A DNA stretch of 64,000 nucleotides, taken from Mucilaginibacter sp. OK268. GTDB taxonomy: Bacteria; Bacteroidota; Bacteroidia; Sphingobacteriales; Sphingobacteriaceae. Within the stretch, counting starts at the first letter, position 1. Each line of letters begins with the position of its first letter. Positions 16,491 to 23,573 of this stretch are shown here, in pieces. A program made the translations under genes and the position numbers. The stretch lies in the NCBI RefSeq assembly GCF_900103125.1, contig NZ_FNJV01000003.1:868001-932000 (forward strand), in the 5' to 3' direction. The notes under the pieces are model-generated. The model worked only from the letters and a program-made list of their open reading frames with translations, was not told where the DNA came from and ran no database searches.

Positions 16491-17597
16491 TTATTGATTG
16501 TAAACTTTAACCATGAAAACATAGTTTCTAAGTTTCTTTATTTGCTGAGGACGGCTTAAACCGGCCAGCGTATTTTTGGTATTTAAGGTTAATGATTTGC
16601 TTAATGAATCAGATGGTATATTTTGGATAGCTTTTAACAGATAAGCCGATTTTACCGCGAACGCTGCTCCTGCTACCTGGGTTTGTTTGGCGTTGATGAT
16701 ACCGATCACATTTCCTTTATCATCCAATAAGGGACCACCGCTGTTACCTGGGTTAACCGGGATAGAAACCTGATATTCGGTAGTGTCGCCCTGGTAACCT
16801 GTTGTCGATGTTAGTCCACCCAGTCCAATAACAACCTTACTGTCCGGATAGCCAATAGTAAATACGTTTTCGCCAAGATCTGTAGATGAACGTTTAAAGT
16901 TATAAGGCACCGCGGCCAAACCTTCAAAAGCTTCATCATTGATCTGTAATACAGCAATGTCATTGCCTGGCTCGGTATAGATCACCTTACTGTGGAATGA
17001 TTCACCGGCAGCATTTTGAACATATACAGAATCCGCGTCTTTAATAACATGGTAATTGGTAACGATATATCCGTTTGATGAAAGCGCGAAACCGGTACCC
17101 CTGAAATTACCTGGGTTGGTTATTCTCTTGCTTCCTTTTATATCATTTATGATGCTATTAGTACGGGTGTTCAATGTTGCCTGCGATTGTTTGATCTTGC
17201 CAATCTCCTGGCTTAACTGCTCAAAGTTCGATTCGTGGTTATTCAGTTTACCGGTAAAGAACAGGGTACCCAGAATAGCGAAAATAGCTATGGATGCTGC
17301 TACCGATATTTTAGAATGGTGGTTACGCCACATGCGCACTACCCAGGTTGGATGGATGGTTACTTCTTCTTTCAAAGCATGTACATCAATCTCGTCATGA
17401 ATAGCGTTCAAGCGTTTTTCAAGCTCCAGGCGTTCGCCGTATTGTTTTAGTAAACCAATAAACTGCATGTGCTCGGCAACCCGGCTTTCTACAGTCGCAT
17501 CGTTTTTGCGGAGCAATTCAAACTGGGTACGCTCTTCGGCGGTCATGCTGCCGTCAAGGTACCTTTCAATTAATTCCGTAAGTTGGTGATCACTCAT
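16491..17597 (-). CDS. Membrane-anchored trypsin-like protease with anti-sigma-like N-terminal tail
   Basis: From ATG 17597 (MSDHQLTELIERYLDGSMTA) the protein is 368 residues. Residues 1-90 resemble the cytoplasmic tail of Bacteroidota anti-sigma factors (ERYLDG..TAEER..FE motif). A membrane helix spans about 96-115, followed by a coiled-coil linker (SNFEQLSQEIGKIKQSQATL). A periplasmic chymotrypsin-fold protease follows, with His183 (TNYHVIKD), Asp213 (GNDIAVLQI) and Ser286 (NPGNSGGPLLD). No PDZ domain is seen. The gene begins 17 nt after the sigma-factor stop. Inference: it holds the sigma factor at the membrane and senses or executes periplasmic proteolysis. An HtrA-like quality-control role without anti-sigma function is the alternative. 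Confidence 0.8.
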   Translation of the reverse strand: MSDHQLTELIERYLDGSMTAEERTQFELLRKNDATVESRVAEHMQFIGLLKQYGERLELEKRLNAIHDEIDVHALKEEVTIHPTWVVRMWRNHHSKISVAASIAIFAILGTLFFTGKLNNHESNFEQLSQEIGKIKQSQATLNTRTNSIINDIKGSKRITNPGNFRGTGFALSSNGYIVTNYHVIKDADSVYVQNAAGESFHSKVIYTEPGNDIAVLQINDEAFEGLAAVPYNFKRSSTDLGENVFTIGYPDSKVVIGLGGLTSTTGYQGDTTEYQVSIPVNPGNSGGPLLDDKGNVIGIINAKQTQVAGAAFAVKSAYLLKAIQNIPSDSLSKSLTLNTKNTLAGLSRPQQIKKLRNYVFMVKVYNQ

Positions 17598-17614
17598 CTC
17601 TTTGCTTTCCTTCC

Positions 17615-18184
17615 TTATTTCTGCTGAAAAAATAACTTTTTCAGCCTTTGCAGGCATTTATATTTTTGTGTTTTGGCATTATCAGCATTAGTATAGCCAA
17701 AACGTTCGCAGATATCCTGCATTGATCTGTTATGTATATAAAAATCTTCCATAATGGTTTTGCAGGGTTCGCCCAGCAATTGCAGGGCACTTTCCATTTT
17801 ACTGAACTGTATATCCCTTTCATTATGGTCATCAACCTCTTCATCAACAGGCAGGTACTCTTCAAAATCACGAATATCGCCTCCGTACCTGTTCATGTGG
17901 CTAAGCCTTTTGAGCCAAAGCCTGCGGCAAACCGAATAAATATAAGTTTTAAGCTTACTGCTTAGTTCGAATTTGCCCGATTTGATCTTATTATAAAGAA
18001 CGATGATCGCTTCCTGGTAAATATCTTTGGCATCATCCTCATCCCCGTTGTTATTGACAATTAACTGTAGTATCATCGGAAAATAGGTAGTGTATAACTT
18101 TTTTAACACTATTTCCGAGTTGTTAAGTATACCAAGAACTATCTCGCTATCTGTTGGTGCCGAAGCTTTTAACTCTTTATTCAC
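17615..18184 (-). CDS. ECF-type sigma-70 family sigma factor
   Basis: 189 residues from a GTG start at 18184. Region 2 is VLKKLYTTYFPMILQLIVNN with DAKDIYQEAIIVLYNKI. The acidic linker (EEYLPVDEEVDDHNERD) leads into region 4, with ALQLLGEPCKTIMEDFYIHN and SMQDICERFGYTNADNAKTQ. The protease with an anti-sigma-like tail follows by 17 nt, the normal place for an anti-sigma factor. Two copies of the same promoter motif lie upstream (18187-18215 and 18311-18339). The proximal one ends 2 nt before the GTG, so its transcript would be leaderless. Confidence 0.9.
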   Translation of the reverse strand: MNKELKASAPTDSEIVLGILNNSEIVLKKLYTTYFPMILQLIVNNNGDEDDAKDIYQEAIIVLYNKIKSGKFELSSKLKTYIYSVCRRLWLKRLSHMNRYGGDIRDFEEYLPVDEEVDDHNERDIQFSKMESALQLLGEPCKTIMEDFYIHNRSMQDICERFGYTNADNAKTQKYKCLQRLKKLFFQQK

Positions 18185-18186
18185 TC

Positions 18187-18215
18187 TTAATACTATTTAT
18201 ACGAAATTGTAACCC
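18187..18215 (-). promoter_or_regulatory. ECF promoter motif, proximal copy at the sigma gene
   Basis: On the minus strand GGGTTAC (18215-18209), 15 nt, GTATTAA (18193-18187). The -10-like box ends 2 nt before the GTG start codon. Confidence 0.7.
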
Positions 18216-18310
18216 ATCATTATAAAAAATAATTTATCTAAAATAAATTATTAGCATTAACCCGGATATTTAGTGTTGTAACAATTATGCGCCCGAATGT
18301 TTCATCCGTT

Positions 18311-18339
18311 TTAATACAATAATTGAAACAAGGTAACCC
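18311..18339 (-). promoter_or_regulatory. ECF promoter motif, distal copy at the sigma gene
   Basis: On the minus strand GGGTTAC (18339-18333), 15 nt, GTATTAA (18317-18311). It would give a leader of about 120 nt. Confidence 0.7.
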
Positions 18340-18466
18340 AAGCCTATTTTAACCCATTTTTTTACAAGATGGCAAATCTGCAATAAAAAAACCCGGCCTC
18401 AAAAACATTTCGTCAAACAGCTGCCAACCCAGGCATATGCAGGCTATTTTGCCCCAAAATCCGGAC

Positions 18467-18495
18467 AGGTTACCTTTTTGTTTTCATTGTATTAA
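18467..18495 (+). promoter_or_regulatory. ECF promoter motif of DSAK lipoprotein 1
   Basis: AGGTTAC (18467-18473), 15 nt, GTATTAA (18489-18495), then 38 nt to the ATG. First base of the -35-like box differs from the other copies. Confidence 0.75.
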
Positions 18496-18533
18496 CATCA
18501 AAAAAAACAATTAAAATTTAAAACTTACCCAAA

Positions 18534-18749
18534 ATGAAAAATTCAATCAAATGCGGCCTGGCCGCATTTGCAATCGCTATTTCTTTCACTGCTTGTGATC
18601 CTGCTTCAAAAGCTCCAGCTAACTCAACCCCGGTTGATTCAGGCAAAACAGTTGCTGTTGATTCTGCTAAAAAAGCCATTACCGATTCGACAAAAGCAAC
18701 AGTTGCTGATTCTGCAAAAGCTACTCTCCCGGATTCAACTAAAACATAA
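18534..18749 (+). CDS. Small DSxK-repeat lipoprotein 1
   Basis: 71 residues: a lipoprotein signal peptide with lipobox ISFTAC (Cys at about 21), then a low-complexity tail of DSAK/DSTK-like units (VDSAKKAITDSTKATVADSA). Homologous in plan and signal sequence to the two lipoproteins at 21894 and 22279, but its repeats are more diverged. No enzymatic domain. Likely a disordered, charged envelope lipoprotein; function unknown. Own ECF motif upstream and terminator downstream, so monocistronic. Confidence 0.8.
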   Translation: MKNSIKCGLAAFAIAISFTACDPASKAPANSTPVDSGKTVAVDSAKKAITDSTKATVADSAKATLPDSTKT

Positions 18750-21710
<2,961 letters not shown>

Positions 21711-21819
21711 TGTAGATATTGGAGGAATTGCCGTATTTCTGGATGAAAAGCCTTAGCAAGGAAAAAGCAGCGGCTATTTACCAACATGAAAAATTAATTT
21801 TATTTTTTTTAAAAAACGT

Positions 21820-21848
21820 GGGTTACCTTTTATGTTTACGAGTATTAA
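21820..21848 (+). promoter_or_regulatory. ECF promoter motif of DSAK lipoprotein 2
   Basis: GGGTTAC (21820-21826), 15 nt, GTATTAA (21842-21848), 45 nt before the ATG. Confidence 0.8.
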
Positions 21849-21893
21849 CACCCGAAAACGATCACAAAATATTTAAATTTTAAAACTCACAAA

Positions 21894-22100
21894 ATGAAAA
21901 ATTCTTTCAAATTAGGTTTCTTAGCATTAGCTATCGCTGTTTCTTTCGCAGCTTGTAAAGGTTCTGGTTCAGCTTCTGCTACCGATTCTGCTAAAACTGA
22001 TTCTGCTAAAACTACTGCTGTTGATTCAGCTAAAACTGATTCTGCTAAAACTGATTCAGCTAAAGTTGACACTGCAAAAAAAGATACAACTAAGAAATAA
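21894..22100 (+). CDS. Small DSAK-repeat lipoprotein 2
   Basis: 68 residues with lipobox VSFAAC (Cys at about 21), then a spacer KGSGSASAT and near-perfect DSAKT pentad repeats, ending VDTAKKDTTKK. Nearly identical over the signal peptide to lipoprotein 3. The repeats are Asp/Ser/Ala/Lys, so the chain should be highly charged, neutral overall and unfolded. Function unknown. The DNA repeats (GATTCTGCTAAAACT) could expand or contract by slippage. Confidence 0.8.
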   Translation: MKNSFKLGFLALAIAVSFAACKGSGSASATDSAKTDSAKTTAVDSAKTDSAKTDSAKVDTAKKDTTKK

Positions 22101-22212
22101 TTTCACTGCAATATAAAAGGCGTTAGAAATACAAATTTCGATTCCTTTTTATTGATTTTTTAGTTATTCGTTAATTTATAAAGGGTAACCTGTAATTTTT
22201 TTTCAAAATTAT

Positions 22213-22241
22213 GGGTTACCTTTTTTTGTTTACCGTATTAA
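22213..22241 (+). promoter_or_regulatory. ECF promoter motif of DSAK lipoprotein 3
   Basis: GGGTTAC (22213-22219), 15 nt, GTATTAA (22235-22241), 37 nt before the ATG. An inverted GGGTAACC lies about 30 nt upstream. Confidence 0.8.
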
Positions 22242-22278
22242 CAAGAAAACTATTAAATCACTTATTAAAAAATTAAAC

Positions 22279-22485
22279 ATGAAAAATTCATTCAAATTAG
22301 GTTTCTTAGCATTAGCTATCGCTGTTTCTTTCGCTGCTTGTAAAGGTTCTGGTTCAGCAGGTTCTGCTGACTCAGCTAAAATGGACTCAGCTAAAATGGA
22401 TTCTGCAAAAACTACTGCTGTTGATTCAGCTAAAGCGGATACTGCTAAAAAAGACACCACTAAAAAAGACACTACTAAGAAATAA
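22279..22485 (+). CDS. Small DSAK-repeat lipoprotein 3
   Basis: 68 residues; the first 28 match lipoprotein 2 almost exactly, including lipobox VSFAAC. The tail has DSAKM units and a Lys/Asp-rich end (ADTAKKDTTKKDTTKK). A recent tandem duplicate of the gene at 21894, together with its promoter. It ends before a strong terminator. Confidence 0.8.
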   Translation: MKNSFKLGFLALAIAVSFAACKGSGSAGSADSAKMDSAKMDSAKTTAVDSAKADTAKKDTTKKDTTKK

Positions 22486-22601: not shown

Positions 22602-23045
22602 ATGAAATATTCTGAATGGCAATTACTCAGTAAGGACGAACGCAAAAACATAGGCTGGCATCGGCACCCACGCATGAAAACAGCCACCCTTTTTAGTATT
22701 GTTTTGATCATAGTTGTTATCGCAGTAGTTTTGGGCATTAGTAAAAACAGCACGGTACATCTTAATCGTAAACCTACGGGCCAGGAAGCTTTTCATATGG
22801 CCCAGGGAATTGTGAAGGATCATTTAAAACAACCCACAACGACCCAGTTTCCTGATCATGATTTTAAACCTCTGATTGATACCGCAACCAACAGTTACCA
22901 GATCCGGTCGACAGTAAAGGCATTGAACATTGATGGCAAAACAATAAACTCAACATGGGTAGTGGATATGACTTATACGGGCGGCGATTGGTCTGAAAAA
23001 ACAAGCTGGCAGGTTAAATCCGTAAGTATATCGCCAGAAAACTAA
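22602..23045 (+). CDS. Single-pass membrane protein, unknown function
   Basis: 147 residues: a cytoplasmic N-terminus (about 1-26), one membrane helix at about 27-46 (ATLFSIVLIIVVIAVVLGIS) and a roughly 100-residue extracytoplasmic domain. The domain begins AFHMAQGIVKDHLKQPTTTQ and has a beta-rich end (STWVVDMTYTGGDWSEKTSW). The latter pattern is seen in small envelope proteins of unknown role; no family was recognised with confidence. Confidence 0.65.
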   Translation: MKYSEWQLLSKDERKNIGWHRHPRMKTATLFSIVLIIVVIAVVLGISKNSTVHLNRKPTGQEAFHMAQGIVKDHLKQPTTTQFPDHDFKPLIDTATNSYQIRSTVKALNIDGKTINSTWVVDMTYTGGDWSEKTSWQVKSVSISPEN

Positions 23046-23120: not shown

Positions 23121-23573
23121 TTAAACCCGATCGCGCAGCGCCTTTATTTCATCATGGGCATCAAGCAGCTCATCAAGCTGTGTGTTTACCACCTCGCGTA
23201 AGTGAGCCGATAAATGTTCCTCTTCAAGGGCTTCCCGATAGGCTTTAACAATAGCATCTTCTCCAAACTCGCATTCTTCCAGTATATCATGGGTATCATG
23301 AGCAGTAAACGCGGCCTTAACATCAAGCCATGTTCTGTGAATTTTACCGCTGGTGGTTGTCCAGTTATCGATATCCTGTCCTAATGCCTGAATTTCGGTA
23401 CCCAGCTCCAGCTTAAACCGGTGGCTATCGCCAATCAACGTAGTAAATAGTGATTTAAGATCACTCTCGTTATCCTTTAAGTCTTTTAAAGCGCGTTGAT
23501 ATCCCTCAATGCGATCATTATTAATCTGTACCAGGTCATTTAATACCTCGGCTGTTGCTTTTGTGTTTTCCAT
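23121..23573 (-). CDS. PA2169-type four-helix bundle protein (DUF2383)
   Basis: 150 residues, all helical: AEVLNDLVQINNDRIEGYQR, LKDLKDNESDLKSLFTTLIG, TWLDVKAAFTAHDTHDILEE and the EFGEDAIVKAYREALEEEHL helix. Length and pattern match the ferritin-like PA2169 family (DUF2383), often stress induced. Whether it binds metal is not clear. The next minus-strand gene upstream is a 55-residue lipoprotein; both may be envelope or stress related. Confidence 0.8.
   Translation of the reverse strand: MENTKATAEVLNDLVQINNDRIEGYQRALKDLKDNESDLKSLFTTLIGDSHRFKLELGTEIQALGQDIDNWTTTSGKIHRTWLDVKAAFTAHDTHDILEECEFGEDAIVKAYREALEEEHLSAHLREVVNTQLDELLDAHDEIKALRDRV

Follow-up and report, generated by a model that had tools for sequence, protein, structure and literature searches.

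A probable self-contained ECF sigma factor module with an apparent anti-sigma/protease fusion and small sequon-rich lipoproteins in Mucilaginibacter

Genes and promoter sites at the locus

We analysed a stretch of 64,000 nucleotides from Mucilaginibacter sp. OK268 (assembly GCF_900103125.1, contig NZ_FNJV01000003.1, positions 868,001 to 932,000), hereafter the window, and within it a locus where the gene of an extracytoplasmic function (ECF) sigma factor adjoins a membrane anti-sigma gene downstream and faces three divergently oriented lipoprotein genes. A first inspection of the letters and open reading frames (ORFs), hereafter the sequence-only reading, had proposed that the sigma factor regulates itself and targets these lipoproteins through a shared two-box promoter motif.

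The sigma factor (17615–18184, minus strand; 189 amino acids, GTG start) scores 69.6 bits against TIGR02937 over residues 27–183 (cut-off 42.9) and 31.8 against Pfam Sigma70_r2 (cut-off 24), the Pfam search of this protein returning no region 4 match. The lipoproteins, all on the plus strand and each with the motif upstream, are A (18534–18749, 71 amino acids), B (21894–22100, 68 amino acids) and C (22279–22485, 68 amino acids); they are paralogues with near-identical signal peptides.

Five copies of the motif, with 15 nt between boxes in each, were re-found by a scan of the window exactly where the sequence-only reading had placed them: four GGGTTAC-N15-GTATTAA and one AGGTTAC-N15-GTATTAA. 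Two lie on the minus strand before the sigma gene, at 18187–18215 (proximal) and 18311–18339 (distal), and three on the plus strand before lipoprotein A (18467–18495, the AGGTTAC variant), lipoprotein B (21820–21848) and lipoprotein C (22213–22241). The distance to the lipoprotein starts, given earlier as 37–45 nt, also held, the gaps between the −10 box and the ATGs at 18534, 21894 and 22279 measuring 38, 45 and 37 nt. As a refinement, the −10 box of the proximal sigma site was found to stop just 2 nt upstream of the GTG start. Among 100 shuffled versions of the window, none reached five motif matches, even with up to two mismatches allowed, and the group of motifs at the locus is more than chance.

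Downstream of the sigma gene, at 16491–17597 on the minus strand, lies a predicted fusion of an anti-sigma domain, a transmembrane helix and an HtrA-type serine protease, recognized by homologue alignment, fold and catalytic triad. According to an alignment (A2) of 31 homologous sequences, its start is probably the ATG at 17597 and not position 17657 of the listed ORF; both parts then stand in one chain of 368 residues. Residues 1–97 (17307–17597), probably cytoplasmic, are modelled by AlphaFold as a helix bundle (predicted local distance difference test score 83.8). The predicted transmembrane segment (17253–17309) is the most hydrophobic 19-residue stretch, with a mean hydropathy of 2.2, and the trypsin-like domain (16698–17099) matches Pfam Trypsin_2 at 90.3 bits. 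Its triad, numbered His203, Asp233 and Ser306 on the 388-residue ORF that begins at 17657, is kept in all 32 sequences that span it, and the C-terminal part resembles HtrA1, DegS and DegP with Z of about 20. No PDZ domain appeared in the Pfam search of the fusion, and the degP_htrA_DO model gave 95 bits against a cut-off of 416. Where HtrA proteins carry PDZ, the model displays a helix and a strand formed by a C-terminal tail, QIKKLRNYVFMVKVY (16494–16553), which is well kept across families.

For the N-terminal domain, the best matches among solved structures were RsiW (Z 6.6 over 70 residues, root-mean-square deviation, rmsd, 4.7), MucA (Z 5.7 and 5.6, 54 residues, rmsd 2.7) and RslA (Z 5.6, 63 residues, rmsd 5.8). 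ECF anti-sigma factors fill the seven top Foldseek rows and the four top VIA rows, the first unrelated row having Z 4.2. Residues 1–97 contain no cysteine, so that no zinc-binding HxxxCxxC motif is present there; this motif marks the zinc-binding anti-sigma (ZAS) subclass and is not needed in all class I anti-sigma factors. The fusion claimed by the sequence-only reading is thus backed by gene context, by an intact triad and by fold, strongly for the protease and moderately for the anti-sigma part.

Confinement of the motif in the host genome

The whole genome (7,160,842 bases in 19 contigs) was then scanned, as the sequence-only reading had proposed, with the reversed motif as a control. RGGTTAC-N14-16-GTATTAA matched six times, namely the five window sites with 15-nt spacing and one site elsewhere with 14-nt spacing, for no match of the control. 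One mismatch to GGGTTAC-N15-GTATTAA added five further sites, all of them inside ORFs 100 codons long or longer on either strand; with up to two mismatches allowed, the sum was 76 (42 and 34 per strand), close to the 70 of the control (26 and 44). The exact 15-nt-spaced motif is confined to the locus; equal frequency in coding sequence, which had been named as an observation that would contradict the proposal, was not found. At one mismatch no convincing further target emerged in this genome, a more sensitive profile scan not having been made. In this host, the sigma factor apparently transcribes only its own gene, the anti-sigma gene and the lipoprotein cluster.

Recurrence of the motif and of the module in relatives

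Several sets of relatives were compared; they overlap in the genomes that they draw on. The named set holds the best 80 of 547 relatives, that is, Mucilaginibacter, Pedobacter and a few metagenome-assembled genomes labelled only Sphingobacteriaceae or Bacteroidetes; it shares genomes with the genus set, and counts from the two are not independent. Sigma orthologues with 70–97% identity occur in 33 of 36 genus genomes, the closest named locus being that of Mucilaginibacter sp. SG564 (97%). Across 61 genus genomes, GGTTAC-N15-GTATTAA gave 220 matches versus 18 for the control, with at least one match in 58. All 34 genus loci carry the motif before sigma and before at least one lipoprotein, and eight of them have the distal sigma site, 75–198 nt upstream of the start. 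In the named set, the sigma-upstream motif and the anti-sigma gene were present at 80/80 loci and a lipoprotein site as well at 76/80; two of the remaining four have less than 300 bp of upstream sequence. Among divergent motif sites of these loci, 149 of 157 precede a small ORF containing D-S/T.

A motif-independent test led to the same picture. When lipoproteins were picked by protein features alone and the motif was scored with at most one mismatch within 110 nt, it was found at 171 of 226 small repeat lipoproteins in named loci versus seven of 425 ORFs of at least 120 codons, all seven of sigma length (183–193 codons). The same test in other genera gave 20/27 lipoproteins versus 2/225 longer ORFs, both again of sigma length. 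The sigma site was present in 19 of the 20 loci that represent 19 further genera, and the remaining locus has a GTATAAA −10 box. The comparison with other Sphingobacteriaceae suggested beforehand was thereby carried out, and the sigma and lipoprotein sites recur.

Of 151 family genomes, 137 have a match to the fusion protein, one in each, and they represent 20 of 25 genera. In the 14 family genomes lacking an anti-sigma match, several of which are small or incomplete (8/14 pass the 90%/5% filter), the motif stands at background (two matches versus two for the control), for 39 versus four in 14 genomes chosen from the 137. Because the motif is confined in the host genome, kept in relatives and no commoner than background in family genomes lacking the module, we call the regulon a local, autoregulated ECF regulon, which supports the autoregulation and the lipoprotein targets claimed from the start.

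Related forms of the module are also found across many other families of the class. In a class-wide draw of 296 genomes, 64 match the fusion at E ≤ 1e-30, 13 of these in the protease part only, leaving 51 (a split made by reading the match table). Nine other families, labelled f12, f17, f23, f28, f36, f40, f48, f61 and f67, were sampled by 20 loci; GGTTAC lies shortly upstream of sigma in all 20, with −10 boxes that are mostly GTATTAA, GTATAAA, GAATTAA or similar. A small low-complexity lipoprotein follows a GGTTACCTT half-site in 15 of the 20 (the −10 box not being demanded), although the f12 one may be there by chance.

Some copies of the motif in relatives lie apart from this arrangement. 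In L081, L084, L085, L087, L090 and L091, an exact GGTTAC-N15-GTATTAA is found away from the sigma locus, 9–23 nt before the ATGs of small (94–119 amino acids), mostly hydrophobic proteins, which may in some species belong to the regulon as well. An intergenic copy is kept in three relatives (L072:2132–2159, L073:1894–1921 and L074:2142–2169), some 200 nt ahead of a thioredoxin-like gene and in divergent orientation to it; no convincing ORF lies downstream of this copy, which could initiate a small RNA.

A probably leaderless sigma mRNA

The closeness of the proximal promoter to the sigma start is common among relatives. The earliest in-frame start codon is a GTG 2–3 nt past the −10 box in 64 of the 80 named loci; elsewhere it is a TTG at 0 followed by a GTG at 3 (five loci), a TTG at 2 (one) or a start at 13–17 nt (ten), and the first in-frame ATG comes only 110–111 nt past the box in 66 of the 80. 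When the 64 starts were aligned, the third position was the most variable in nine of the 12 codons from 3 to 14 (exceptions: 5, 7 and 8), and because of this third-position variability coding seems to begin at the GTG near the −10 box. In SigW-type ECF promoters, transcription starts about 6–9 nt past the GTA core, and this distance leads us to place the start of the transcript at, or next to, the sigma GTG. The sigma mRNA made from the proximal promoter is thus probably leaderless in most named relatives. A passage of PMC9723704 gives the share of leaderless mRNAs in Flavobacterium psychrophilum as 5.5% of those with mapped starts.

Sequon arrays in the lipoprotein tails

The tails of the lipoproteins, chosen by motif and lipobox and not by sequon, are rich in D-S/T-[AILVMT], the O-glycosylation sequon of Bacteroidota. 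The three window tails, which follow a lipobox-like site, hold 18 such sequons versus 2.6 ± 1.5 in shuffled tails. In 112 distinct Mucilaginibacter tails we counted 635 (5.7 per protein) versus 104 ± 9 shuffled; in 30 Pedobacter tails, where Glu is more frequent (88 versus 185 Asp), 140 versus 36.6 ± 5.2; and in 19 tails from other genera, 103 (5.4 per protein) versus 20 ± 4.1. Site counts of this kind overstate certainty when turned into z-scores, the sites being non-independent through repeat expansion and kinship. However, because the same sequon occurs in unlike repeats across genera, its recurrence does not come from repeat expansion alone. In Mucilaginibacter, Ser or Thr follows Asp in 718 of 737 cases and Glu is rare (30 versus 737 Asp); the third residue falls within the extended set A/I/L/V/M/T/S/G/F/C in 711 of the 718, and is Lys in only two although Lys makes up 20% of residues. 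That extended third position is described for Porphyromonas gingivalis in a passage of PMC8729774; PMC12871550, in the part concerned with the sequon, describes it and its wide presence in Bacteroidota and calls the role of general O-glycosylation unclear.

These low-complexity tails are probably disordered, and in Sphingobacteriaceae and some other families the lipoproteins most likely form a densely O-glycosylated brush in the envelope. A resemblance to the Braun lipoprotein through a C-terminal Lys was considered and dropped, as the last residue differs among the proteins (K, M, H, N, Q). Against the PG1828-family lipoprotein model (NF050142), the window lipoproteins score 22.7, 32.5 and 34.6 bits, under its cut-off of 50. 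A fourth DSAK-like lipoprotein of the host genome (G000:C13:243656–243838, L192), with 50% identity, has no motif in the 160 nt upstream.

Tandem promoters and neighbouring genes

A 20-bp hairpin with a T run behind it (22180–22224, plus strand; −21.3 kcal/mol, z −5.5) separates lipoproteins B and C and probably acts as the terminator for lipoprotein B. The hairpin overlaps the −35 box, with its 3′ arm, and the T run of the lipoprotein C promoter. Over the named loci and the window, 55 of 106 tandem lipoprotein promoters have their −35 box paired as the 3′ arm of a hairpin (mean z −3.2); the same pairing is seen at 6/48 of the remaining lipoprotein promoters (mean z −0.05) and at 28/114 sites of sigma genes or of another kind (mean z −0.7). 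The likely interpretation is an overlap between the terminator of a lipoprotein gene and the promoter of the gene after it. A general operator was rejected as a role for the hairpin, the enrichment being found at tandem sites only. Little hairpin pairing was seen in the sampled Pedobacter sites (L176 and up).

Three neighbours had been listed as lacking the motif, and in the window none of them has it. The first (19071–21710, 879 amino acids), between lipoproteins A and B, had been called rph. It exceeds the cut-offs of two NCBIfam models, rifamycin phosphotransferase with 1482.8 bits (cut-off 999) and also phosphoenolpyruvate (PEP) synthase with 1601.4 (cut-off 976); the absence of an upstream motif stood, and the name is better given as rph/PEP-synthase-like. 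No rph was found in 136 of 136 related stretches searched (stretches only, some genomes appearing twice), and it was rejected as a regulon member on both grounds; its absence from these stretches suggests a recent insertion here. An uncharacterized protein of 147 amino acids (22602–23045) and a DUF2383/PA2169-type four-helix protein (23121–23573) recur in 23 and 36 of the 136 stretches, respectively.

Proposed mechanism and alternative explanations

Taken as a whole, these observations are in our view very probably best explained by a self-contained envelope-response module made of an ECF sigma factor, a fused anti-sigma/protease and a private set of lipoproteins. The sigma factor would recognize TGGGTTAC(C)TTTT...GTATTAA, with heptamers 15 (sometimes 16) nt apart, and would transcribe itself together with the anti-sigma gene that follows it, as well as the clustered small lipoprotein genes in divergent orientation. 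The N-terminal domain of the fusion would tether sigma at the inner membrane, and its periplasmic part would be an HtrA/DegS-like protease without PDZ. A periplasmic cue would activate this protease, which would cut its own linker or that of a neighbour, and further proteolysis would free sigma, by analogy with RseA/DegS. The output would be lipoproteins of about 60–80 residues with low-complexity tails, and the architecture suggests that the signal comes from the envelope.

Several points weigh against this interpretation. Foldseek E-values for the anti-sigma domain are 1.1 or higher, its Z does not exceed 6.6, a value below 13 possibly reflecting mere helical-bundle resemblance, and zf-HC2 is under its cut-off. 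Because these Z and E values are weak, the identification of this domain rests on the uniform list of matches and on gene context, and we hold it with moderate confidence. At one mismatch or less, 55 of the 226 lipoproteins picked by features have no site, some of which may be second genes of one transcript. The incomplete genomes among those without the module belong here too, as do the five of 20 distant loci (four f40, one f17) without a linked lipoprotein nearby. Finally, some relatives have additional intergenic sites upstream of other small proteins, and the regulon is not always private.

The composition of some tails tells in the same direction and bears on what the lipoproteins do. 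The same regulon could exist with a conserved lipoprotein task that is simply to form a hydrophilic disordered brush, glycosylation being no part of it and D-S/T-A repeats one low-complexity solution among others. Indeed, all half-site-linked targets are small low-complexity lipoproteins, and those of f28, f48, f61 and the single f12 candidate are rich in Glu/Ala/Pro, Thr/Glu, Glu/Val or mixed charges with 0–2 sequons: f28 tails have one sequon and 9–10 Glu, f48 tails one or two sequons, f61 tails none and 22–23 Glu, and the f12 candidate lacks them altogether; in f36, one tail out of five has just two. A universal role in O-glycosylation is accordingly unsupported. However, charge alone does not predict the Mucilaginibacter pattern, with its near-obligate Asp-Ser/Thr, its avoidance of Lys after it and its scarcity of Glu, and the other genera lose most Lys yet keep their sequons at the density given above. 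We regard a brush without glycosylation as possible, if unlikely. Common to all families would be a short hydrophilic low-complexity tail, the sequon arrays being the form taken in Sphingobacteriaceae, most f36, f23 and f67.

The envelope-response module can also be extended to a function. It may act across Bacteroidia families as a single-copy sensor, an anti-sigma factor with its own site-1 protease and a dedicated sequon-array brush, that monitors and buffers the state of periplasmic O-glycosylation or of lipoprotein export, under-glycosylated lipoproteins being part of the signal; we offer this as a doubtful, speculative proposal.

Another explanation would have the protease domain act on the lipoproteins, for instance by cutting their Lys-rich tails in the manner of trypsin, while the anti-sigma factor would sense their supply. 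Conserved genetic linkage and the intact triad speak for it. Lys, abundant in Mucilaginibacter and Pedobacter, nevertheless accounts for just 53 of 881 residues in the other genera, so that Lys-directed cleavage would not be the conserved function; with Lys not conserved in the tails the idea is weakened, and we judge it improbable.

The motif could also be the operator of another regulator, or the promoter of a different sigma factor, merely located at this locus. It does precede unrelated small genes in some relatives, and other ECF-type factors exist in the host genome (18 matches to the sigma factor at E ≤ 0.001, itself counted); its two boxes, near-fixed spacing and promoter-like distance, its place before sigma in all nine other families and its background level where the module is missing make this very improbable. 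That the sites are shared by descent, paralogous lipoprotein cassettes with near-identical signal peptides having been duplicated with their upstream DNA and the motif being unselected, is hardly credible, as much of the spacer and flanks differ among sites (the boxes are fixed by the search, the motif-independent lipoprotein test being unbiased) and the divergent sigma gene, which is not one of these paralogues, has the boxes across families.

What goes beyond the sequence-only reading are the sequon arrays in the tails, the probable leaderless sigma mRNA and the hairpin/−35 overlap at about half of the tandem promoters. The promoter is sharp, the target set is tiny and defined, and inhibitor and protease seem to be fused, so that few mutants would suffice to test the whole pathway. 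The targets, moreover, look built for O-glycosylation; if they are, the role of general O-glycosylation in Bacteroidota becomes directly testable.

Comparison with known systems

The literature search gave no description of an anti-sigma/HtrA fusion or of this motif, the main ECF reclassification work lying beyond its coverage, and nothing on Mucilaginibacter ECF sigma factors; the main reclassification paper reportedly appeared in Nucleic Acids Research in 2021. Sequence comparison establishes the motif, the target set, the protease domain with its triad and the sequon arrays; transcription, the route of proteolysis, glycosylation and the signal are inferred.

In the Escherichia coli sigmaE/RseA/DegS pathway, as in AlgU/MucA/AlgW, an ECF sigma factor is paired with a membrane anti-sigma factor and a periplasmic serine protease. 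The present module resembles it in its ECF sigma factor, its predicted membrane anti-sigma factor, with a probably MucA/RsiW-like domain, and its predicted DegS-like periplasmic protease. Unlike it, the module would have anti-sigma factor and protease in one polypeptide, without PDZ, and a private lipoprotein set instead of a wide regulon. DegS of the envelope-stress pathway is treated in a passage of PMC8103513.

With the SigW/RsiW class I pairs, the module shares a two-box promoter of fixed spacing and probably the N-terminal domain, whose nearest matches are RsiW, MucA and RslA; it differs from them in the lack of a cysteine/zinc motif, in the fused protease and in its boxes, GGGTTAC and GTATTAA. 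A Bacteroidota set of ECF-type promoters that includes an ECF sigma/anti-sigma operon, SM6 of F. psychrophilum, is described in a passage of PMC9723704; this set differs in its CGT −10 box and in the type IX secretion system genes among its targets.

The lipoproteins themselves, weakly similar to the small PG1828-family lipoprotein across most of that model, are like the general O-glycoproteins of Bacteroidota in being exported lipoproteins with D-S/T-[AILVMT] sites (known here from sequence), and unlike them in repeating the sequon five to six times within a tail that is about 49 residues long.

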